Part shown: in pieces, positions 545 through 34,792 of the stretch
Numbering within the stretch: position 1 is the stretch's first letter
Layout: each line of letters starts with the position of its first letter
Assembly (NCBI GenBank): GCA_963681505.1
Contig: OY811983.1
Span: 3,836,122-3,900,121 of the forward strand
DNA from: Eunapius fragilis
Taxonomy: Eukaryota > Porifera > Demospongiae > Spongillida > Spongillidae
DNA length: 64,000 nt
Reading direction: 5' to 3'
Notes under the pieces: model-generated
What the model was told of the DNA's origin: nothing
What the model saw: the letters and a program-made list of their open reading frames with translations, nothing else
Databases searched by the model: none
Made by a program: the position numbers and the translations under genes

Positions 545-1039
545 GATTCCGCTCGTTGGTTGGATCGATTGAACGTTAATAAAACATCAATAACTTGCTA
601 GATACCAATTCCTATCTAGAACATACTACCGCATAAGGGTCTCTTTAGCTGTAGCAGGGACGTAGCACTCATAATAGGAGTGGTCCGACGAATTTAACTA
701 CTTCATACTAAATACAATTTTTAAAAACTCTTTTAAACCATGCATGAACCATAGATATTAGACTGGAATGCATGAACTGTCATAGCAAAATCACAAATTA
801 AAACAGAGAAAATAACCCTGGCCGATGTTGTGAACCCGCGATTCACTTGCACTCGCAATGACCTGGTTGTTATATAGTAAAATGAACAGACGCACATTTT
901 AAAGAAAATTAAGTGTAGGGGCAAAAGTGGTCCGGCGAAAGCCGGACTTGCCGGACCTATTCATACGTCCCTGTGTAGTTTCTTTGTAGATGTGATATGC
1001 ATTTATATGACATGATAGGATAACGTGCCGGTAAATTTC

Positions 1040-1342
1040 GAAGCGATTGGTACTATTGCCGTTCTTCAAAACCGTTCGTAGCTCGAGTTATACCTTACCT
1101 TCCTAAGAAGAAGACGACCAACAATTATTTTAGGACGGGCACGAGAAACAGGAAATTGTTAGTTTCTCTATAACCACACCCGTTTTATGACACGGAACCA
1201 ACATAGAACAGTAGATCGTTGTGCTCTCATTCAGCCGCGACAAAGAGATAAGCGATCCGTTTCACCGTTGTTCCTCCAGACGCGAGTTACGTTTTTTTAA
1301 TGACTTCATCAGCCCTTATATTGAACCTGCTGCCGCAGGTTC
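1040..1342 (+). repeat. dispersed ~320 bp repeat, copy B, with terminal hairpin
   Basis: Second copy of the repeat at 208-544, starting with the same GAAGCGATTGGTA block and ending in a hairpin at 1323-1342 (8 bp stem, loop TGCC). One stem position is G:C here where copy A has A:T, and both sides have changed. Confidence 0.6.
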
Positions 1343-2797
1343 AGATTAGAAACACTGTTCCTACATATTTCATTTTAACACCAGTTTTATAGTACGACAA
1401 ATTCTGTGGGTTGCAGGATTAAAATAATTCCTTACTGTTGCTTATTTTAAGAAAGATAATTATGTATATATCGCATATAAGCCCAATCATTTTAAGAGCA
1501 TTAATGCCTACTTGCTTAGGGATAGGTATTTACAGCTGCAACATGTCAAAGTTGTCATGTTCGTCATTTTCAATGCAGTATAGGCTCTATGGTACAGATT
1601 TTTCTAGCATGTTTCATATGATTTTTAAAAGCATTACTATATATCAAGCAAGGTAGATTACATAGGCTGTGTTTAAGTGTAGGAATTTCGCTTCATAGTT
1701 TAAAAGATATAGCCATTTTTGCTTCAAAATCTCATTTTCAGGCACTGCACATTATCAAGAATACGCATCGACAAACAATGACTTTTTTTATTGACTTGTG
1801 TAAACAATTTAAGATGGTGCCTGCATGGTTAATTGCTTAGAGCTGGAAAAGGTGTGGAATCTACAGTACTTGCATGTCAAATCCAGTGTTTGCCACGATT
1901 TTTACAGCTGTAGACGAGGCACCCGTTGTAAACAGGGAGAGCAAACTGTGGCACCATGCAGTACATGCATGTTTACTGATGAGCATATATGGATGAGGAC
2001 ACAGTAGGCTCTGTGTGTGACACATCATCAATTGATGCATCATATTGGCAATCTTTGTGCAAGTTGTAACAACCAAGGTTTTGAACTAGTATAATAACAC
2101 GTTGACCCAGTTGACTGACACTATATGTAATAAATTGGCTTACCATTCTGCCAACAATTAGTAATAGGATATCTCACATATTAGTACCTAAAGTAGGGAT
2201 GTGGGTAATCAATCAGTGGATGTGCAAAAAGCTATATGGCAAGTCAAAGATGTGTATTATTAATCCATGTCAAGCATGTATTATACAAAATTTGTCCAGT
2301 GTAAAGAGGTACTATAGTGCATGTACATGTAGCAGGGTGGCTACCAAAAAATATTTATAGGTGCTAGCTACATAGCAAATCAAAAATTCTTTCAAGAGTC
2401 TGCAAAGAATAAATGTGATTCTGTATGTGTATGGTCAGATTGTGCACAGGGAGTCAACATTGCCCGATCCGCTCACCTTTGCACAATTGGTGTAAGTGAA
2501 TGGTATATCTGTTTGACTTTCAACAAATAGAAATAAGCCACAGTACAAGATGATTCATTAAAAAATGCAATCTGAGGTAATTATTTGATTTCTGATTTCG
2601 CCCCAAATATAGCAAAATTGTGTACATTTCTCATGAAGGCGATGTTTAAAAAAAGTAGGACATTAGCTATTAGTTAATGTGATCTCATTCCTATTCCAGA
2701 GCTGGGAAATCCTAATTACTTCATGGCTATGGAATGTGGCTTATCATGGAACTATTACCATACAATTTTTTAATTTTTGCTGCTGGCTTCTATGCAG
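1343..2797. other. no gene recognised
   Basis: AT-rich sequence with only short ORFs (60-72 codons) that show no recognisable motif or convincing splice structure. Nothing else stands out. Confidence 0.5.
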
Positions 2798-2845
2798 GAA
2801 AACTGATATGAATGACTCCAATTGGAGTCATTCGTATCAGTTTTC
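2798..2845. repeat. 48 bp near-perfect palindrome
   Basis: Two 24-base arms meet with no loop at 2821/2822, with one mismatched pair. It could be a worn palindromic MITE or a cruciform-forming site. Confidence 0.8.
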
Positions 2846-4559
2846 AGAAGGCTTTTTCTCTAACATTTGCCAGGCTACATGCAGTGTTAATTGAACTCTT
2901 TTAGAAACGTATACTTTCTATGCACTTGCTTGGAAACGTATTTTCTGTACTTCATATCAGCACACTGAATAGGATCACATTCTCACTATCTTTGTATGGC
3001 TAGACCAAAAACTAATAGGTTTCATGGCCACAAGTACATATACGATGCTACATTCGTACACATTACATTTAGCATGCGGCTTTTTCCTCTCAGGACTGAG
3101 GTGTATATGTAGGCTTGAAAATGGCACATATACACATTCAGTGATCTTTTCTTTCTCCAGCTTTGGTTACTATGTACATGTACTGCCTCGAGTTCATACA
3201 GTTTTGTAATTGCTGTGTATAAATAGAGCATGGATTGATGCTGTTGATCTCCACTCGAGCACCCTTTCCCCCTACTGTACTCCAGTACATGACAGCATCA
3301 AGGAAAGTAAAAATAATAGCCAGTTAAATGTGTCTATGTAGTCCGAATAGTAGGTATTGGCTGAATGCGCTTGGCACTACATATTACATGGATTTGGCTT
3401 TGGGGTTGATGGCTTTGAGAGCAAGGCACAGTGTCAATCCATGCTCAATTACAAATAGTAATGTAAAGAAATCATTAATTTGGTCTCGCCACACAAAAAA
3501 GTGAGAGAATATGTTTCTATAGCCGTATATTCACTGAACTAATATGATGCACAAAAGATACGCTTCCAAGAAAGTATAACGAAAAATATGTAAAAACACA
3601 TCTCTAATTCTAAATGAGTCCAACAAAAAGATTAGAATGTAATTACAAAGCCCAACAATGCATACACTTTGTACCAAGATACTTATATATAGACACACCA
3701 GGAACATCCTAGAATCTGGTCTCAGGATTACTTATCCCATAGCCTCTATGCACCTGACTTCATGTTACAAGAACCGGGACTGTTATCTGTCACATTCAGA
3801 GAAATGTTTTCTGACCCTAATTACTCGAAGCACCATTAGCCTAGCCTTGAACCAGTTTTCCAGCGTAGCCCTAGGAACCGGCAGCACATAGTCCTCAGTT
3901 ATCCTATCTGCTTGAGTGTATCCAGTATAAGCCACATTCCATAGCCATGCAATAATAAGGGCCCAATAGCTGGTCTCGAATTCAGGAATGGGGAATGACA
4001 CATAATGCCATAAAATGAAAAAGTAACCTGTGCCTACTTAGCCTAGTATCCAAACTGTCTAATCACAGCTGCAAATTATATCACTGCTATGTGGAAAGAA
4101 GGTGTGGAGGAAATTGTACAACATTGTGACCAATGGGTGTGCCGTAATGAGTTCAGTCCATTCTTGTCGTGCCTCCGGAGCTACTCAGCAACCATAGCCT
4201 TACCCACAGGTGGAGTGGCAAACCCACACACTTTTGTATACTTGTCAGTATTTTCTAGTTCGCATATTTTATTCACCTGCCAGATTTTAGTCTTTTACAT
4301 CGTGTGGTTTAACACCTAGAGTGAATTAACAGTATGTGGTTCCGCCAAAATTGTGATCTGGCTATTGAAGCTCTCCTTCTAACTACAAGTTTCCATCGAA
4401 AATGGAATACGGGAAATGCAGGAGCTTTAGACGTGCTTGGTTACAAGTGTTTCCATGGTTGTCATATTCCAGGTCTTTAGATAGAGGTTTTTGCATAAAT
4501 TGTCTTATTCTTGAAGAATAAAAGTGTGGCTGCATGGTCAGCTTGTCATGCATCCAATA
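2846..4559. other. no gene recognised; short inverted repeat pair
   Basis: The only structure seen is a segment around GGCTATGGAATGTGGCTTAT at about 3930-4000 (minus) that also occurs near 2690-2750 (plus), so the two are inverted copies of some old repeat. A minus ORF over 3783-4001 lies in it but is not recognised. Confidence 0.45.
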
Positions 4560-24497: not shown

Positions 24498-24724
24498 TTG
24501 TCATGATTGCAAAAAGAGACGAAAATGAAGGAATAAAAACCAGAGATATTAGAGTAGATGAACACAATTCGTCTCCTTAGGAGATGCAAGAGCGACGATT
24601 AATCGTGTTCTGAGCTTATCCGTTTTGTTCGCGTGCGTGTTCTCATAAGCGGTAGTCGTTAATTGCCTATGCGTGGGTGTTAAAATGACTGATGCAGGAT
24701 GGGTGTTTATTTCACAACAGATAC

Positions 24725-25434
24725 TCATATCTTATACTGAATTTCATCTACATATGTCAATGAACAACTACCCAAGTGGACGCAACCCAATTCAACAATA
24801 AGTGCTTTTTTTGCAATTACCACCCCACCTATAATTGAATATTTTTTATTCATTCGTTTTGCCATTGCTAAGTATGCCTTTTCAAGTACCTTCAGCTGTT
24901 TTCTCAACTGTTGCTAGTGGGCTTCCAGAATCTGAGTTGATTTCTGCTCAGATCTATTTTCTCCTTCATATTTCATCTTCATTATCCTCCTCCTTACTGA
25001 CTGGAGTGTCATTATCCTCATGGTCATCATTTTCCATGTTGCCACCATCTTTAAATTATAGTCTTCATTGCAGCCACCATTTTCCAAGCTTCTACCATCA
25101 TCGTGATCCACAGTTATCATCTTCCATGCTGCAACATTCTTTATAGTCCTCCTTGCTACCACGTTCTTCAAGGTCCTCTTCCTTACTGCCATCATCTTCC
25201 AAATGTTGCTGGTCCTTTCTGCTATAGTCATCTTCATTGATCTACTCCTTTATATCTAATCCACATCGGTTTTGTTATCCTCCTCTCTGGTATCCTCTGC
25301 TTTGCTACATGTGTCGTACTTAAGGTCTTCCTCATCCATCTTTCCTCTGATTGCAACATCTGGCAGTACCACTGACCTGGGGGGGGCTGTCCAAACACTA
25401 ACTCATATGCATGGAGTGTGTTTTGTGGATTCAT
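24725..25434 (-). mobile_element. C-terminal part of a KRBA2/GIN-like integrase remnant
   Basis: On the minus strand, 25234-25434 contains YELVFGQPP, the hallmark that follows the catalytic core in integrase-only KRBA2-like genes. 24725-24907 has a basic helical stretch (KAYLAMAKRMNKKYS) like the region after it. Between them lies a low-complexity repeat. The matching N-terminal and core part is at 32240-33295 on the same strand. The piece is broken and separated from its other half by the 25454-32156 element. Confidence 0.55.
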
Positions 25435-25453
25435 GAACTTGAGAGTTGACCGT

Positions 25454-25493
25454 TACAAACCACTTCCAATCTCAAGTGAGAATTTCCAAATTC
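25454..25493 (+). repeat. left terminal inverted repeat
   Basis: Begins TACAAACCACTTCCAATCTC. It pairs with 32117-32156 with only a few mismatches. Confidence 0.75.
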
Positions 25494-25838
25494 TGATTGA
25501 ATTAAGAAAATTGTTCAAAATGTGCATAAAATCAACCTTTTTATATTATGTGAGATTTTTTCACCTGATGCAATAATTCTGCTATTTTATGCACATTTAG
25601 TGTACAAATCATGATATATGTCAAATATCTATTTTTTCTATTAGTTTGGTAAAACAGCTGTTTTAGGCAGATTAAAATGTGCACTTGCATTAAATTGTGA
25701 ATATCATAAGATTTGTTCATAGCATGTTGCCTTTAATGTTCAGTTAAGTAATTATACAAGTGTACCATTGGAATATAATGCCTTCAAGTCAGTGATTAAT
25801 TCTTTAGTGAGTCGGTTGGATTTGCTAATGGAAATTGG

Positions 25839-26177
25839 TCATAGTACTGCATCTTCACTGACTTCTTCAACCTGCTGTAGCCCTCTTATCTTCCAGGGTA
25901 CCCAGTTGGCTGTGTAGCGTCCTACCCACCAGCCAATTATTAGCTTTTTCCCATCTATCACAATAACTTCAGCTATTTGAGGTTCTTCATCTGCATATTT
26001 TTTTAACTTCAGTGCAACAAAGCCTCCATGTTGTACAGAAGCAAGCTGTGATACAGCTACTGAATCAGGTTCAACAGTTGTCTCATTAAGATGGGTGGAT
26101 GGTAGAATTTGTAGTGGTACCAGAGGGAGGGCTGATCTGCTGCTAGTTTTGCAGGGCTTCTTTTTGCCGCAGTATAC
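25839..26177 (-). CDS. C-terminal exon of an unknown minus-strand gene
   Basis: From an acceptor-like ATAG at 26178-26181, an open frame of 112 codons runs to a TGA at 25839-25841. The sequence starts CGKKKPCKTS and has a conserved-looking second half: GGFVALKLKKYADEEPQIAE, then a GWWVGRYTANWVPW segment rich in Trp and Gly. The WW.G.Y..NW..W pattern suggests a small beta-rich module such as those in chromatin readers, but no family can be named. Lack of an ATG fits an internal or terminal exon. The start of the gene may be at 27006-27249. It has no stop over a length where random AT-rich DNA would have several, which is the main evidence for coding. Confidence 0.5.
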   Translation of the reverse strand, partial: VYCGKKKPCKTSSRSALPLVPLQILPSTHLNETTVEPDSVAVSQLASVQHGGFVALKLKKYADEEPQIAEVIVIDGKKLIIGWWVGRYTANWVPWKIRGLQQVEEVSEDAVL

Positions 26178-26539
26178 CTATAAGCATAATACATGCATGA
26201 TTATAATATAAAAGGTCTGATGATAAAATTTAGTACTTCTTACTGCAGTGAGATACATGTACGCTGGGTTTGGTGCATCTGAAATTTCAAATTATAGTGA
26301 GTGAGGTTGTGCGATATTTTTAACTGCTGCGATATGCAGTTTGGTACTTCTGAAATTTCAAATACTATGATTTTTGTGACATTCTTTTGTTTATTGTTTG
26401 CACTATAGACCAAAAAATAATCATGCTATCTAATCATTAATGGTTATTATGTTACATTGTAACGTATCCTTTGTATTCTTCTATGTATCCATATAAAGCA
26501 TGTTAAAATTCATGAGTAAAGGGTTAACACTAACACTAC

Positions 26540-26710
26540 TAGTGGGTAGGTGGGAGGGTGTTATGGTACTAGTGTTGTAGGTGGGAGGGTGTGATGGTAT
26601 TAGTCTGTAGGACTTTGTGTAGGTGGGAGGTGGGATGGTACTTGTGTGTAGGTGGGTGGGTGGGAGGGTGCTTGTGTGTAGATGGGATGGTGCAATGATA
26701 CTAGTGGGGT
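26540..26710. repeat. minisatellite tract (GTGGGAGGGTGTGATGGTAC type)
   Basis: Irregular copies of a ~28-30 bp G/T-rich unit, the same unit as at 28000-28640. Confidence 0.8.
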
Positions 26711-27005
26711 GCAATGGTCCAAATAAATACTAGTAGACAGCATATAGACAATGGTAAATATGGACAATTGTTAAATTAAAACACTAGATACAGCGTGCTC
26801 AAGCACTGTTTTATGGTGCTGCAGGTCTAGAAATAATTTCATGTCTCATACATCTCAATCTCAAAAGAATATAGATAACTGAAATACTGTCATGCATGCG
26901 TGTATAATTTAGCCCTCCAGGGTGTCATGCCTACGGCTATGAACGACTTACTACTGTCTGAATTAATAAATGCCCCTACTAGAACTCAACAATTGATATC
27001 CTTAC

Positions 27006-27249
27006 CCAATAAATTGTCCCTCGAACTTGCAATGGCACGTAGCAATGAGTTAGTCGGTAAAGAGGATTCGCGTTCGCTGGATGTAGAAATCAGCTCGGAA
27101 TTAGTATCGGAGCAGTCGCGGAAATTAACTCCCGTCAATGAAGAGACTGAACTAGCGCTAGTGCAATCGCTAAAATTGACACTACAAGAAGCATCACTAG
27201 AACTCTCACAATCCGTAAACGTTAAAAACTCTTCTTCTGTCATCTTCAA
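27006..27249 (-). CDS. first exon of the minus-strand gene in the TIR element
   Basis: The frame starts at ATG 27249 (or the second ATG two codons on) and gives about 81 residues rich in Ser, Asp, Glu and Thr, beginning MTEEEFLTFTDCESS. A donor TTGG/GTAAGG follows at 27005. Acidic Ser-rich N termini are common in transposon-coded DNA-binding proteins, but there is no domain to name. The likely next exon is 25839-26177. The phases of the two do not join directly, so a further small exon or a break is needed. The start lies about 60 bases from the GC palindrome shared with the plus-strand gene. Confidence 0.4.
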
Positions 27250-27299
27250 TAGTGCACTTAGCTGCTGTATTGCATTATTAAGTCCAGCTGTGATACAAG

Positions 27300-27325
27300 G
27301 CGCGTTTGCGCATGCGCTTAATGAT
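27300..27325. promoter_or_regulatory. putative bidirectional promoter with NRF1-like palindrome
   Basis: GCGCATGCGC inside TTTGCGCATGCGCTT matches the NRF1 consensus. It lies between the divergent starts at 27249 (minus) and 27442 (plus), in a locally GC-richer patch. The LTRs at 8.9 and 13.8 kb also contain GCGCATGCGC. Confidence 0.4.
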
Positions 27326-27441
27326 ACCAGCTGCTCATTCTTTAAGTGTTGAGCTCTGGGCGAACAAAGGCTGTTATTACTTCATGGCATTTGAAGGTTG
27401 ACAATGATACCAGAATTTAACTGATGAAGGGAGAAGAAAAA

Positions 27442-30400
27442 ATGAAAGCGGAAGGCAACTACAAGGATGGAAAGCGACCGTACATCGGACCCGTTACAGA
27501 TGTCCGACACCACAGAACATCCGATAAAGCGTATCTTCTGGTAAGAGCAATACTCTTCCTAATTGAGGTATTATTATTATATTTTCACAGTTCAAAACTG
27601 TGAAAGACACTGTCCGTCCCAGACTTTGCTTGCTGACAATTTTAATGCGTCAGCAAACGATTTCTGTGAGTTGTTTCAAAGAGCAGGTTAAGCAAGTCAC
27701 TTCACGCAAATATGGAAAACAAAAGTAACGCCACATATGACCTCTGATGGGTACTTCTACGATGCTGGAATAGGTCAGGCATCAAAAGTATGTGTACTAA
27801 TAGTTCAAAGAACCTTAATAATATATTATCCAGGACCGAGCATGCAATAAAAGGGTTGGAGCATCACAAAATGAGGGGGAAAGCAAAGCTCCAGGTAAAA
27901 CGCGGTAATTTTGACACAACCACATTTACGAATTCTAGATGGGAAGGGTAAATGGCATGCGTATGCGCATATGAAACTGGATGGTATCCTGCTGTTCAAT
28001 ATGTAGGGTGTGATGATACTAGTGGGATTAGTGTGTTCATGGGAGGATATGATGTTACTAGTGGGGTGCAGTGTGTAGGTGGGAGGTGTGATGGTACTAA
28101 TGTGTTGGTGGGAGGGTGTGATGGTACTAGTGTGTAGTTGGGATGGTGCGATGGTACTTGGGTGTAGGCAGGAAGGTGTGATCGGACTAGGGTGTAGGTA
28201 GGAGGGTTTGATGATACTAGTGTGTAGGTAGGAGGGTGTGATGGTACTAGTGTGGAAGGGTAGTGTGTAGGTGGGAGGGTGTGATGGTACTAGTGTGTAG
28301 GTGGGATGGTGTGATGATACTAGTGTGGGAGGGTAGTGTGTAGAGATGAGAGGGTGGGAAGGTGTGATGGTACTAGTGTGCAAGTGGGAGGGGGTGATGG
28401 TACTAATGTGTAGATGGGAGGGTGTGATGGTACTAGTGTATAGGTGGGAGGGTGTGATGGTGATAGTTTGTAGGTGGGGGTGTGATGGTACTTGTGTTGT
28501 GGGAGAGTGTGATGGTACTAGTGTGTAGATGGGAGGGTGTGATGGTACTAGTGTGTAGGTAGGAGGTGTAACGGTACTAGTGTGTAGATAGGAGGGTGTG
28601 ATGGTACTAGTGTGTGGGTGGGAGGGTGTAAGAGAAAACAATTCTCTTAAAGAGAAAGTTAGTGTGATTTAGGATTTGAAGGCATAGGTGGTGTAAAAAG
28701 GAATGGAACAACAAAAATGAGAAAGAATAATTAGCACTTTATTTGGTTCAGTTGCATTGTTTTCTTTTCCCAAAACCTTGTTCCCTTTTCTTGTAGGTGG
28801 GAGACAGGGAGGGTGTGTATGATAGTGGGGGTTGATGGTACTAGTGTGTATGGTGAGGGATGTTTTGTTGCAATTATCATGTATGAGTGTATGGTGTTAC
28901 AATCAGCTTGTATGAGGAGTATGGTGCTACTATAAGCATTCATCGTTGCTCGCACTGGCCTTGTGTGTGCACCAGTCTAGTGTACATAAAGATTAAGCCT
29001 GCTGCATTATCCTATCCTCCACTAGACACATTATTTGAAGGTGCACCAAAACCCAAGAGACAAAAAACTGCTGAGTCTTCAAGTGCAGAATCCTCCTCTT
29101 TATCATGCCCAAGCTCCTCCATGCTGTGTGCTGAAAGTGAGGCAGCATACAAGGATATAGACTCATGCTTCATAGGTCTGTTTAATAATGTAAACAAGTA
29201 CTTAGCATAATAAACAACTATGCCATATAATTCCCACTATTTATAGTATTTTATTATTCTGTCTATCAGGGAACTTTAACATTCCCGTCTCTTGTCTGTT
29301 ATCACCTGGCAAAGAGTACTTGATAAGAGAGGCCGACGAAAAGTTTATTGAGTGCCTGAAGCATGAAATGGTACAGAACAGAACGTGTGATGTTGCCCCA
29401 ATTGTCGTAACAGCGCGATTGTCGGATGATGAGCAATTTGACTTCAAGCATCCCGAAGCGTATACCTATAATACTATTGGTGGTAATCATTCGCGGATCG
29501 CTCTGCAACAGTTGATCACTGAAAACAAGGAGCTGGCAAAGGATCCAACGTTTTCGTCCCGCCGTGTCTCAGTTTATGGGAGATTGTCTGCTGAGCAAGC
29601 TCAGCATCTTGCACATAGGCATAATCGTGCTACCGAATTTACCAGTAAGATGAACACGCAAGACAAGGTATACTGGAAATTCCTTTCAATGCATGAACAT
29701 ATGATGAAATCAATGATTGTGGTAGACGAAAGTTGAAATTTGTGTGTCAGCATAGTAACATTTATTTATCATATTGCTTATTGTTATCATTACCCCCATA
29801 TATAGGTACATTTGTGCAGGTTAAGGCTATACACGATTGCAGGAAGATCAGTTAGTGATGAGCCACCTGAAAAGACGAATAAATGGAGGGAATCATGCGC
29901 AACGACTTTAATGATGACGGTAAATCTTATAGAGTACTTTGATTATTCTGGTTATGAGATTCAAATAACTAAATCTTTATAGTAAAAATGAAACACCCTG
30001 TTTTGTTGAGTTTATGCATATATGGAACAGTGTCGATCATAAACTTATCAGTATAAAAATTCAACGTTACATTAATGTGTTTATCTTCACAATCTGAGGC
30101 TCATATAGCTATCCTTACAAACTAGGTTGATATCGCTAGACACTGTCCCACATTATTTTTTGAATGGATATAATTTCATTTACTTTCATTTACAGAAGAA
30201 GCAGTTGGACGAGAATATGATTTATGCATTAGCATCATTAAGTAATGAGAATTATAAACTTTACCAAGCAATTGTATATTGATGTGAAAAGGGTAAAGAC
30301 AAGAAGACCAAGAAAAGCTCCTTAGGGCTGTCCTGCAACAAAACGGACTGCAAAGGCAGTAATTTTCGTGGTATACGTGGCTTAACTGAGGACGAAATGA

Positions 30401-31873
30401 CAGATATGCTACAAAAGTGTGCAAATGGTGAAATCACTCTCCAAAAAATTAATTTGGAATGCTCGATTTCAAAGAAAATCAAAACAATCAAAGAAGCGTT
30501 TATGGATCGAGTGGGATGCGTAAATTGGCTCCAAACAGTGGAACAGTATGGACATTTTGCTGATGAAAACATTCTCAGGGACTTGTTTATAGAGCTCAAA
30601 TTGTCTCCTAATGTACCTGCTGCATTCAATGAATATTGTGCTAAGGCACTAAAGTAAGTGAATTTGTGTTAAATGAATTGCAATGACGAATGTTTTATAA
30701 ATACAGTTCCAAGCTGGTGGGAACAAAATCATCTGAAATTGATGCGAGAACTGCAGCTGTATAGTCAGAGGATCGAACATCTCTAACACTGCTAATTCCT
30801 CAGACGATTACCCTACTCTCCTTTGAAGACATTAAGAAGAATGTCAGACCATTTATTGGATGTGCTCTGACTTTGGTGAAAGATGGGTTGGAAAAAGAAG
30901 ACGTGAGTTATTCTAGCATCATGTGTGCAATATGACTAGTTTGTAACCTCAATGTTATTTGTATTTAGACAATTGCTGTCATACGTGGTATTAAAGCAAT
31001 CAATGCTGCCGTCGTGCTATACCATTGTCTGAATGTCATCACTAAAGTATCACCCGCACGTGCCTGCGAACTATGTGAACTACTTCAAGGATCACAGTTC
31101 ATAGTGCAAATGGCATACTATACACATAATCAAGTTGCAAGTGGTATTTATAACATTATTGCATGGAGTACTCTGGTTACAATTGGTTATTATTATTATT
31201 ATTATTCATTCTTCAGGCCCCCTTTTCACTACAGAAGTAGAGCCTTTTGTAGTCGCTGCTTCAGATCACACCTGTACCAAAATCAAAAGAAGTAATTTTT
31301 TTTCAGTCACTGAAGAACAATTCTATGAAGAAGTAATTAGTTCCTTTACTTCTGAAGGTGACTACATCCTCACAAACAACACCAGTCCATGTAAGTTACT
31401 TTCAATGCAGCATAAAATTGCATTTGTAATGCAAAATAACTTGTATTATAATGATACTGATGCTTTAATGAAATGTCAGTAAATTGGAATGCAGTTTAAA
31501 ATCTACAACACTAGGCTTTTGAAATTTCAAAAAGAACAAAATTATATATCAGTATATGCATACCATGGAAACTTGTAAAATATTAATTAAAACAAACCAC
31601 ACTTTGCCACATCTGAAATTTCAAGACCACCAAATTGGCATTGCACCTTAACATCATGATTGGGTTATGCATATAAGATATAAGATTGAGCGCAAGTTCA
31701 ATTCAAACAACTTACAAAATAATCACTTCTTTGTTTCAGGCATTCCAGTCAGTGCTGGAAAAAAGAAAAGACACGTCATTGTAGCAAATGAAAACGGAGC
31801 CGAATCACTCCTTCAAATAAGCACAAGCAATGATGACGTGGAAGAAACTCCAAATGATAGTATTGAGTATTGA
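27442..31873 (+). pseudogene. multi-exon gene with ParB/Srx-like domain and methyltransferase-like end
   Basis: Exons inferred from splice signals: 27442-27540 (MKAEGNYKDGKRPYIG...), about 27590-27790, about 28990-29175, 29270-29667, about 29820-29919, 30196-30653, 30707-30902, from 30969, 31217-31390 and 31740-31873. The 29270-29667 exon holds the ParB-like core: NFNIPVSCLL and KEYLIREAD..IECL, then TIGGNHSRIALQQLI near 29473-29517, then AEQAQHLAHRHN. This order (strand, R-x-x-D, GG-N-H-x-R, Q-x-x-x-x-A-x-x-H-N) is that of ParB/sulfiredoxin folds. The last exons (EEVISSFTSEGDYIL, then KKKRHVIVANENGAESLLQI) recall motif I of DNA methyltransferases with its D-x-F-x-G-x-G residues lost. In-frame stops (TGA near 30282, TAG near 30759) and a probable frame change near 29825 indicate decay. 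Confidence 0.5.
28000..28640. repeat. minisatellite, ~28-30 bp unit
   Basis: About 20 irregular copies of a unit containing GGGAGGGTGTGATGGTACTA and GTGTGTAGGT. It lies in an intron of the ParB-like gene. The long Pro/Thr/Ser/His-rich ORF on the other strand is an artefact of this repeat. Confidence 0.9.
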
Positions 31874-32116
31874 CTGAGTATTGACTGGTGATATGCTAGG
31901 ATATATATATATAGGCAAAGAAAATTGTACTTCATTGGTTTCATGAGACAATATTAATCACATATGAAAGACAGTAATTAATAGTGACAACGTGAAATTC
32001 TATAACCTCGCAGATCATTACTGAAATATTTCCTCAATTCATTTACATTATGTAATTCAGATCACCAATTTGCAAGCTAGTATAGCAATTAATCATCTTT
32101 GTCAAGAAAAAAATCT

Positions 32117-32156
32117 GGAATTGGAAATTCTCACTTCAGATTGGAAGTGGTTCGTA
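32117..32156 (-). repeat. right terminal inverted repeat
   Basis: Read on the minus strand it begins TACGAACCACTTCCAATCTG, matching the left TIR at 25454. Confidence 0.75.
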
Positions 32157-32239
32157 TCTATAAAAGAAAAATCATCATTACTCATTAATTCCTTGTTAAA
32201 TGTTCCGACTTAAAAATAATGTAGGGCAAGCATCTTGTC

Positions 32240-33295
32240 CAAGGTGGTGACTTGGATCCACGTTCTGCAATTTTAACACTCAACATTCACTCTAAAGTAT
32301 AATGAACCTGTTCAACTAAGCATTGCGATTCACACGTTGAACACTCCCAGGCCAAGATGCCAGCACATCTTCAATCAGCTTGTTCACAAATTCCCTACCG
32401 TTGTCACTCTGTATAATACTTAGCAGAGCAATAAATGGAAACCCACATTTTTCCAGGTCGCACACTGGTCACCTCCTTAGCTGACTTTTGTGGCAAGGGG
32501 AATGCAAAAGTGAATTTCAACCAGTGGTCAACTACATTCAGTATCCACTTGAATCCATCATGAGACAAATGCCTCATATTGATTAGATCAACCTACACAG
32601 GTGTTGATGCAAGACTTTTTACCAATATTATCACATAATGTAATGAGATACCTGCATGTACTCGACAACCCATTTGCAATATATGGGCCGAAGATTTGGC
32701 TTTGTTTTTTGAGGCATTCTGAGGCTGTAAGTGACTCACAGCTTTATGTAGTGCTCAACCACACTTCTTGGAAAAAATTAAGAAATACAAACTCTGAATC
32801 GAAAAAATAAATGCCATAATCGTATACATCCACAAGCCACATTTGGTTGCAAATACCTTTGCATACGTCTTCTTAGTTCCTGCTTACAGACAGTCCTTGT
32901 TATGAACCTGTCACAAAATTTCGTATAAAATTCCTCTGCTATCGCAACTCTTCGATGCGCCTTCAACACCGTTCAAACATTGCCATTCTAAAATCAGTAC
33001 AACTTTATTGAGACTGTTGCTCATTACAATTGTGTAATACCTGCTTCTTTTCTTTCACAGAAACAAACAGGACGTCTCTAATTCAAGCCACCGGTATGCA
33101 AAGCCGCTTTTTTTTAATGAAACGACGAAAGGCACCATCCGCATCTTGAGTACCTTTTACATGGTTAACGATGCGCTGCGCTACGTCCTTTCTGATCACC
33201 GAGCTTCTGGTATGTTTATCACCAACATGCAGGAAAAGAGGAGTCTGTATATTCTTGAAACAAAGTCTTGGCCGAGCCTTTCCGAGTTCACACAT
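32240..33295 (-). mobile_element. N-terminal and core part of a KRBA2/GIN-like integrase remnant
   Basis: Minus-strand pieces in order: 33083-33295 (basic N-terminal stretch), 32778-32969 (EEFYTKFCDRFITRTVCKQE) and the integrase core at about 32240-32590. The core has VDLINMRHLSHDGFKWI and VVDHWLKFTFAFPL around the first acidic residue, and SDNGREFVNKLIEDVL around the second. The order and motifs are those of KRBA2-like integrase genes, which descend from Ty3/gypsy or Ginger integrases. The gene is broken and continues at 24725-25434, beyond the inserted 6.7 kb element. Confidence 0.6.
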
Positions 33296-34079
33296 TCATA
33301 CAAGCATGCGCGTTATGGCATGTCCGGCCCGGTTACTGAAAAACAACCGGTTAACCGGTTAATCAACGGGTTGGCCGGCTAATCAACAAGCTACATCCGT
33401 GCGGTACATATATGTAGGCTCTAGAGCATTATCTCTGCTTTCAAAAAAATTTTAAAACCCCACCAAAGCCTATGAATCATGTGCGCTGAGCAAATTATTC
33501 ATGATTTGGGCAGTATGTTATTTTGATTTATACCAGTTGACAGGAACGCAGCACCACCGGATAAAACCTTCAGTGCAAAGGATGATGCTACTTGAATGTT
33601 TTGTTTTGAAGGGGACTAGGGAGGGGTGGGGGGGTGGGGGGAAAGATACAAAGCCCAGACTGAGAGGATAATTTCGCGCCAATCTGGAAAATTTGTATGC
33701 GCGTAGTAAAAAAACTGCACAGTAGCAGACGTTACAGCATGAGTAGAGCTAAATTTACATAGAAAAATAGTTGTAGCAATTAATATTTAGTCCATTCAAT
33801 GTTATCGTGAAAATTTTAATGAGGTGGAAGAACCGTAATTATAAATGTCGTACTATGTTGGCTATTGCTGGGTTCTCTCTGCGTTAGTAGCCATTGTTCA
33901 AATTCGGTTTACCTGCACATGCACTATAATGAGTTTTATTATTAATAGTTTCATACACGATGAATTTAATCTCAACCTATCATAAACAACCAAAACAGGT
34001 TGGTATATATAGACTTGGTCAAACTGACTGCTGAATGCCAGTCATCTGGTCCCCAGTACTCCTGACCAACCTACGGGCC
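33296..34079. other. no gene recognised; ACCGGTT-rich patch
   Basis: Near 33325-33390 repeated ACCGGTTAA and GGCCGG motifs resemble the subterminal repeats of the hAT element at 14.5-17.8 kb. A GGGTGGGG-rich patch lies near 33611-33645. No coding evidence. Confidence 0.4.
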
Positions 34080-34377
34080 TGAGAATCACAACAACGCCCG
34101 ATATTATTTGGACGACAGAAACCCCTAATTGCATTGTGTTCTCTCGCGATCTCCAGGGGCACCATATCTATGGTATCGTCTTGTCCCTTAAAGGTGGCGT
34201 TTTTCACGTACTATACAGCCCACAAGTCCTGGCAAATTAACGGATTTCAATATTTCAGGGCGCATAGGCCTGATCAGAATGATGTAATCGTCGAACTCCA
34301 CCCTGCTACATATATAAATAATTATTGCCGATATAGCTTTTCATTCGATCGAAATTTGGCGCGTTTATAGACAAATC

Positions 34378-34792
34378 ATGTCTGGAGAGTGGAAAAGCGG
34401 ATTGTGCGGATGTTTCGATGACTGCGGCATTTGCGTCATGACCTATTTTTGCCCTTGCTACACGTTTGGGAAAAACGCTGAAGCTGTGGGCGAGAGCTGC
34501 TGTCTGTGCTGTCTGTGCTACGGACTTCTGGCGGCCCAGGTAGCGGTGCGGACCAAAATCAGAGCGCAGAAGGGAATCGTCGGTACCATCGCTGGAGACA
34601 TTGCGTACCATATATTCTGCATAGTCTCGTACCCAGACCCACATCGCAGCTGCGGATGGAATACATCACCGCCTACGCGAGTAGTGGTATAGGTCTGGGT
34701 ACGAGACTATATTCTGCACGGTGTGTGCGACCTGTCAGGAAGCGCGAGAACTGAAATCGGGAGTAAAGACCATGGCTATGGCTCGTGAATAA
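34378..34792 (+). pseudogene. second PLAC8 copy, split by a MITE
   Basis: From the ATG at 34378 the first 80 or so residues match the intact copy at 8099-8416 residue for residue up to YHIFC. There an 88 bp palindromic MITE (34622-34709), with its 9 bp target duplication, interrupts the frame. Translation then runs into unrelated residues and stops near 34692. The remaining coding sequence (VCATCQEARELK to the natural TAA at 34790-34792) is still present beyond the insertion and unchanged. The near identity of the rest implies that duplication and insertion are both recent. Only splicing out of the insert could give a near-normal protein, and no good splice sites bound it. Confidence 0.85.
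34622..34709. mobile_element. 88 bp palindromic MITE with 9 bp target duplication (copy 2)
   Basis: Ends are TAGTCTCGTACCCAGACC and its exact inverted copy, flanked by the direct 9 bp duplication TATTCTGCA (34613-34621, 34710-34718). The empty site is known from the intact PLAC8 copy at 8.2 kb, which proves the insertion. Same family as 7098-7189. Confidence 0.92.

Follow-up and report, generated by a model that had tools for sequence, protein, structure and literature searches.

We analysed a 64,000-nucleotide stretch of DNA from Eunapius fragilis, here called the window, which lies within contig 13 of a 219-Mb genome of 24 contigs, and focused on a segment of it that we read as a damaged copy of a two-gene DNA transposon. 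The animal nature of the genome is borne out by Wnt (PF00110), which gives 7 exon matches at three places in it and registers in 0 of 14 control genomes. A preliminary description of the window had noticed inverted repeats of about 40 bp bracketing this segment, and these indeed span 45 nt each (25454-25498 and 32112-32156), are 89% complementary and form the longest inverted pair reported within 24500-33500. Comparison with copies elsewhere in the genome identifies them as element ends and places the true termini of the window copy, designated W, at AACC...GGTT (25458-32152), the outer 4 bp on either side being target DNA. The element ends read AACCACTTCC...GGAAGTGGTT, and the features of W are as follows, with strand in brackets.

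25451..25457 (.): left target duplication CGT-TAC-A, that is CGTA plus 3 bases (C12 empty site, right-side CGTA)
25458..25498 (+): left terminal inverted repeat, starting AACCACTTCC (inverted pair, genome copies)
25839..26177 (-): final exon of the left (DUF7869) gene, still present in W (open, stop at end, AG acceptor; same open reading frame in copy F)
26280..26289 (.): subterminal palindrome TGAAATTTCA, left site 1 (motif scan)
26351..26360 (.): subterminal palindrome TGAAATTTCA, left site 2 (motif scan)
26494..26496 (.): deletion joint, F 1032-3864 absent (blastn of F against W)
26537..26713: 30-bp minisatellite, short block
26986..27381 (-): left gene, 5' coding region as an open reading frame from stop to stop (by eye, comparable acidic frames in fam2 and fam3)
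27442..27540 (+): right gene, probable initial coding exon followed by a GT donor (F and fam3 show counterparts by eye)
28001..28638: 30-bp minisatellite, long block, inside a probable right-gene intron
29044..29175 (+): right gene exon a, start not fixed
29270..29667 (+): right gene exon b, ParB-like region (GGNHSR ... RHNRA), AG/GT borders
29806..29919 (+): right gene exon c
30196..30653 (+): right gene exon d, interrupted in W by one in-frame stop
30707..30902 (+): right gene exon e, likewise interrupted in W by one in-frame stop
30969..31143 (+): right gene exon f
31217..31390 (+): right gene exon g, belonging to the C-terminus that presumably comes from a methyltransferase (family match in fam7 only)
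31520..31529 (.): right site 1 of the subterminal palindrome TGAAATTTCA, flanked by exons g and h
31614..31623 (.): right site 2 of the subterminal palindrome TGAAATTTCA, flanked by exons g and h
31740..31873 (+): right gene exon h, stop at end
32112..32152 (-): right terminal inverted repeat
32153..32156 (.): right target duplication CGTA (empty site)

Searching the genome with 101 bp of the left end and 141 bp of the right end returned 21 and 26 matches, respectively (left/right cross-matches counted), which pair into ten two-ended copies, W and A to I; five more single-ended stretches (J and R1-R4) were aligned as well. Copies A, B, E and F measure 9,990-10,070 bp, with A, B and E 98.2-99.5% identical to F, and these full copies of about 10 kb carry two divergent genes, DUF7869 on the left (minus strand) and a spliced protein gene on the right (plus strand). 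W, C, D and I are deleted forms and H reaches 19.7 kb through an insertion of about 10 kb. W itself lacks F positions 1032-3864, a 2.8-kb stretch with DUF7869 exons, and is presumably non-autonomous. The mobile element family that the preliminary description proposed therefore exists: several copies carry both ends around the same genes, so that a reading of the ends as isolated repeats was rejected, and the ParB-like gene was not seen at conserved positions without these ends. Copy G (L023, C6:4135947-4136755) is an 809-bp fold-back with two left ends face to face, and the 30-bp minisatellite varies in length among copies. The stretch at C1:7056497-7057035 shares the right end and the host flank of the window locus, and its 400-bp flank is 100% identical, which indicates a segmental duplication.

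Target duplications were scored in 13 copies by anchoring at AACC...GGTT (excluding H and I, in both of which one end is truncated), and exact 4-bp duplications were observed in nine, spread over four subfamilies: TATA (B), TGTA (C), TATT (E) and TTGC (F) in fam1, TTTA, TTAA and AGAA in fam2, ATTA in fam3 and CACC in fam4. Collectively, these nine are 81% AT. W is flanked by CGTA on the right and by CGTA with three extra bases on the left. It interrupts one decayed minus-strand gene with several paralogues, the halves of which lie at 25370-25453 and 32300-32620 (-), and the insertion point is read through in the four paralogues fetched. The empty site at the C12 paralogue reads GACCGTATCTATAAAAG (C12 exactly GACCGT-A-TCTATAAAAG), which shows that CGTA is the target duplicated by W; C12 is the only one of the four with CGTA at the insertion point, C10 having CATA and both C17 and C15 TGTG. 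Since the paralogues are only 72-84% identical to the W flanks, this empty site is paralogous rather than allelic. The two halves had been described as those of an integrase gene, and their belonging to one gene stands; the label itself comes from motifs recognized by eye (NVVDHWLKFTFAFPLP, SDNGREFVN and YELVFGQPP), and Pfam returned no match for three short pieces; the gene is termed integrase-like here. Inverted ends, a target duplication of fixed length and a precise empty site (paralogous, and for one copy) together characterize the element as a cut-and-paste transposon with terminal inverted repeats (TIRs).

It had been stated that neither gene looks like a known transposase, which the full copies overturn: none is visible in W because the 2.8 kb with the DUF7869 exons has been lost. 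DUF7869 (PF25273) matches two F exons with E-values of 4.4e-13 and 4.8e-7 (49.7 and 30 bits; Pfam cut-off 26) and a fam7 exon with 1.7e-36 (126 bits). Of this left gene, W still has the final exon and the initial coding region. F, fam2, fam3 and fam7 share the acidic motifs IIDGMDQ and LQLDN..RENKN, fam3 having IQLDN in the second, and the fam7 protein also reads GHTHEDVD. On the strength of these motifs, rather than of a fold, DUF7869 is probably the DDE/D-type transposase of the element. Another, intronless DUF7869 lineage is present at L067 and L068 (C3:739700-746700 and C6:4115600-4122600), with an 891-residue open reading frame and 5.5 kb identical between the loci; it looks recently mobile or duplicated.

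The right gene comprises eight exons, a to h, separated by GT-AG introns, with exon lengths equal in W and F; it is open over 592 residues in F and carries two in-frame stops in W. The exon singled out earlier as ParB-like (29270-29667) has proper splice borders and is exon b of this set. Its label is plausible on motif order and alignment, although the statistics are weak. In alignment A1 (7 sequences; L052 and L051 left out for stops; A3 holds 6), none of the seven sequences matched a ParB family in Pfam, and none was found in NCBIfam or PDB. ParB-like partition families of PHROG matched the expected region of one of the seven at E 0.24-0.25. An hhalign comparison with eight YbdM/IbrB ParB-like proteins gave P 0.039 for the whole and 0.019 for the core, the core score being exceeded by 3 of 300 column shuffles, and it places GGNHSR on DGFHR and RHNRA on RHNRA. 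These proteins of E. coli and phages thus share the motif order at weak statistics, and several of them adjoin PAPS reductase genes and are not in transposons. Relatives of exon b in viral and prokaryotic contigs were sought among 64 and 84 pattern matches, none of which was confirmed, and phages and plasmids yielded only E-values of 2 or worse.

A methyltransferase likeness was first suspected by eye from exon g. In fam7, the N6_N4_Mtase family (PF01555) matches with E 3.9e-4 over profile positions 168-219 of 221, the last 52 positions, and with E 0.0012 for a longer construct; a viral VP2 family match alongside it (0.0032 at best) was taken as chance. Intact N6_N4 DNA methyltransferases carry S-adenosylmethionine (SAM)-binding and DPPY-type motifs. 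No such motifs were seen by eye in fam1-fam3, where this part looks further decayed, and fam7 has a remnant-like VIDLLGTAG. The right-gene C-terminus seems to descend from an N6/N4 DNA methyltransferase whose catalytic motifs were apparently lost. Given the weak ParB matches together with the partial methyltransferase match, a ParB-methyltransferase origin of the right protein is likely, not proven.

Counted exon by exon, the genome contains 27 matches to the ParB-like exon and 90 to DUF7869; weaker ParB-like matches occur on C11, C20 and at other places. Divergent pairs of the two occur in five of six subfamilies (fam1, 2, 3, 4 and 7); outside fam1 they stand 4.4-13 kb apart at C9:9.40 Mb, C23:1.04 Mb and C2:4.44 Mb (fam2), C4:0.70 Mb and C12:2.01 Mb (fam3), C9:3.17 Mb (fam4) and C4:9.24 Mb (fam7), and all seven loci also match right-gene exons d-e. 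A further candidate subfamily, "fam6" on C12, proved to be a fam3 copy (identity 98-99% over its right and ParB parts and 93% over its DUF7869 part). Ends of the W type (AAC..CTTCC) were found as right ends in fam2-fam5 and as left ends in fam2, fam3 and fam4, with one change allowed for the fam4 left end. Identity between copies ends within 4 bp of the terminus in fam2 (left) and fam3 (right). The fam7 ends form a 44-bp inverted pair (84%, C4:9228941/9247379) with no target duplication found.

Closer inspection of the non-coding DNA revealed palindromes 0.45-2.7 kb inside both element ends. The sequence TGAAATTTCA is common to five subfamilies whose non-coding DNA hardly aligns: fam3 shows no DNA alignment with F at E<=1e-10 and fam2 aligns with F in short pieces only, and TGAAATTTCA is kept regardless. 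W, A, B, C, E, F, I and a fam2 copy have two sites close to either end, with only two sites in D, three in H and none in G. In fam3 there are 31+5 copies, many 32 bp apart; fam4 has 6 in the left 2.28 kb and 1 in the right 511 bp read, and the right parts read of fam5 and of the C12 fam3 copy have 2 and 9. The W sites lie between exons g and h on the right and between the last exon and the rest of the left gene on the left. First-order simulations of F, fam2 and fam3 gave a mean of 0.03-0.08 occurrences, and none was present in the 57,297 bp of the window outside the element or in 38,333 bases of flanks and the two intronless DUF7869 loci. The divergent genes had been described as pointing away from a central GC palindrome; a palindrome does lie at 27307, but it is not special because the window holds five such sites (<=1 mismatch).

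In the DNA read, fam7, the most divergent subfamily, has no exact TGAAATTTCA and instead carries GGAGTACA-N4-TGTAYTCC, 19 times near the left end and 13 times near the right, in opposite orientation at the two ends; this sequence is absent from twelve other elements scanned. Genome-wide, 105 pairs of TGAAATTTCA are spaced 15-45 bp apart, compared to 0 for the reversed control. Part of these places were listed, some without their letters, and those listed include fam3 and its C2 copy. At C2 7.23-7.24 Mb, palindrome pairs accompany DUF7869 and right-gene exons, with no ParB-like exon found. Arrays with a 41-43-bp period around TGAAATTTCA were observed at C1:6417812, C1:12992722, C1:24468468, C2:1528811, C3:5074304 and C4:3206061 (the first four identified by letters, two by spacing), away from matched DUF7869 and right-gene exons, and are possibly non-autonomous relatives. 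By eye, some TGAAATTTCA arrays read TTTGG...CCAAA. A dyad extending beyond the 10-bp core was discarded, as six sets showed no consistent excess over background (4.5/3.96, 4.25/4.04, 5.0/4.13, 3.67/4.51, 5.5/4.43 and 4.33/4.34).

Collectively, we hold with good confidence that W represents, in damaged form, a two-gene cut-and-paste transposon with a probable DUF7869 transposase, a putative ParB/methyltransferase-derived accessory protein and palindromes that one of the two proteins would bind. The ends, target duplications, empty site, further copies, paired genes, exon borders and palindromes are direct observations; the transposase role, the ParB fold, the methyltransferase descent with its loss of catalysis and the identity of the palindrome binder are inferred. 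On the simplest reading, the DUF7869 protein would cut at the AACC termini and join the ends to staggered target cuts, leaving 4-bp AT-rich duplications, while the right gene would produce a spliced accessory protein consisting of a ParB-like region, a middle part and a methyltransferase-derived C-terminus without catalytic motifs. The palindromes (TGAAATTTCA, or GGAGTACA-N4-TGTAYTCC in fam7) would be the binding sites of one element protein. As ParB proteins bind palindromic sites, the ParB-like protein is a candidate for this role, and we consider it somewhat more likely to be the binder than the transposase; it may load on the palindromes at both ends and could bridge these ends, 10 kb apart, shield them or mark the element.

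Several observations weigh against this interpretation. An exact duplication is missing from W, A, D and G, four of the 13 copies scored, W being counted as a miss. A six-frame genome search with ParB_N (PF02195) gave 0 matches at E<=10, the PHROG family matched best by the ParB-like exon (0.016, in 5 of 7 members) is one of unknown function, and the support for ParB all lies at the 0.01-0.25 level. The fam7 N6_N4_Mtase match, at 20.9 bits, falls below the curated cut-off of 26.7, concerns one subfamily and appeared only after its last exon, spliced by eye, was added, with none otherwise; a six-frame genome search with PF01555 found nothing, and PDB offered no methyltransferase counterpart. 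The fam5 locus (C4:7.00 Mb) has the right gene with no DUF7869 match listed nearby, a DUF7869 locus at C2 9.86 Mb has palindrome pairs and no right-gene match, and palindrome arrays occur at other loci away from both genes. Finally, the co-variation of protein and site rests on one case, fam7, and since transposase, TIR and palindrome all differ there, it does not single out the ParB-like protein.

An alternative that we regard as evenly balanced is that the element belongs to the Sola superfamily (Sola1-like), with DUF7869 as the Sola transposase and little new other than the host. The preliminary description could match the element to no named group; as far as the excerpted account goes, however, the 21.5-kb Sola1-1_Ec32 of Ectocarpus is likewise a large DNA transposon in which a ParB-like and N4/N6 methyltransferase gene stands opposite the transposase, and similar genes are cited there for green and red algae (PMC12477816). 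That methyltransferase is predicted to make N4-methylcytosine (4mC) or N6-methyladenine (6mA), whereas the motifs look lost here; palindrome arrays and an animal host also set our element apart, the comparison being one of gene content rather than transposase sequence. Sola2, in the portion of its description available, resembles our element in AT-rich 4-bp target duplications, short TIRs and a second protein beside the transposase, which is Fanzor1, unlike here, and again the likeness is by description and not transposase sequence (PMC3627910). The 4-bp duplication expected of Sola is exact in 9 of 13 copies, and the empty site explains W. Countering this placement, palindrome arrays go unmentioned in the parts of both accounts consulted, and the name DUF7869 is absent from the papers of the literature collection searched.

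In other DNA transposons, the element's own proteins bind subterminal repeats. The palindromes may accordingly be subterminal sites of the DUF7869 transposase, with the right gene unrelated to them, which we consider a real possibility that falls on the doubtful side. This alternative would fit the fam7 case, where the two proteins and the site have diverged jointly, and the locus with DUF7869 and palindrome pairs in which the right gene was not detected. Conversely, TGAAATTTCA is absent from the two intronless DUF7869 loci, where no 10-bp palindrome other than (AT)n recurs, an argument made weak by the distance of that lineage and by its ends not having been determined. That the right gene instead belongs to a eukaryotic family of another fold with a chance motif likeness is unlikely: the empty family searches and the failure to confirm or significantly match microbial, viral or plasmid relatives would suit it, but the motif order shared with YbdM/IbrB, the PHROG ParB-like matches over the same region, the methyltransferase-resembling C-terminus and the same domain pair in algal transposons argue otherwise. 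Nothing observed hinted at a Polinton or a virus, although no test aimed at these was made.

Returning to the ParB-like protein as palindrome binder, bacterial ParB-parS systems offer a parallel in that a single DNA element carries both a ParB protein and palindromic sites in clusters. By comparison, the putative binding sites here lie at both transposon ends. We tentatively propose, at somewhat less than even confidence, a eukaryotic ParB-parS-like module in which a dead-methyltransferase ParB-like protein loads on the palindromes of its own transposon, with co-evolution of protein and site and a site switch in fam7. Excerpted reports also describe KolobokP, an animal DDE transposon that bears another gene, of nuclease type, on the opposite strand, an arrangement resembling the one here (PMC9587614), and a Bacillus cereus ParB-methylase with nicking activity (PMC5512222). 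Among the titles and abstract openings listed, we found no animal ParB-methyltransferase transposon and no such palindrome arrays. Elsewhere in the window, a PLAC8-domain exon (2e-16) lies outside the element at 34318-34689 (+), and tRNA and Rfam scans found none.

ParB-methyltransferase genes have already been published for algal transposons, and what is new here are the subterminal palindromes. With this element, ParB-methyltransferase accessory proteins would reach beyond algal transposons into those of animals, DUF7869 gains a suggested role, and because the candidate sites differ between subfamilies, the matching of protein to site becomes directly testable.

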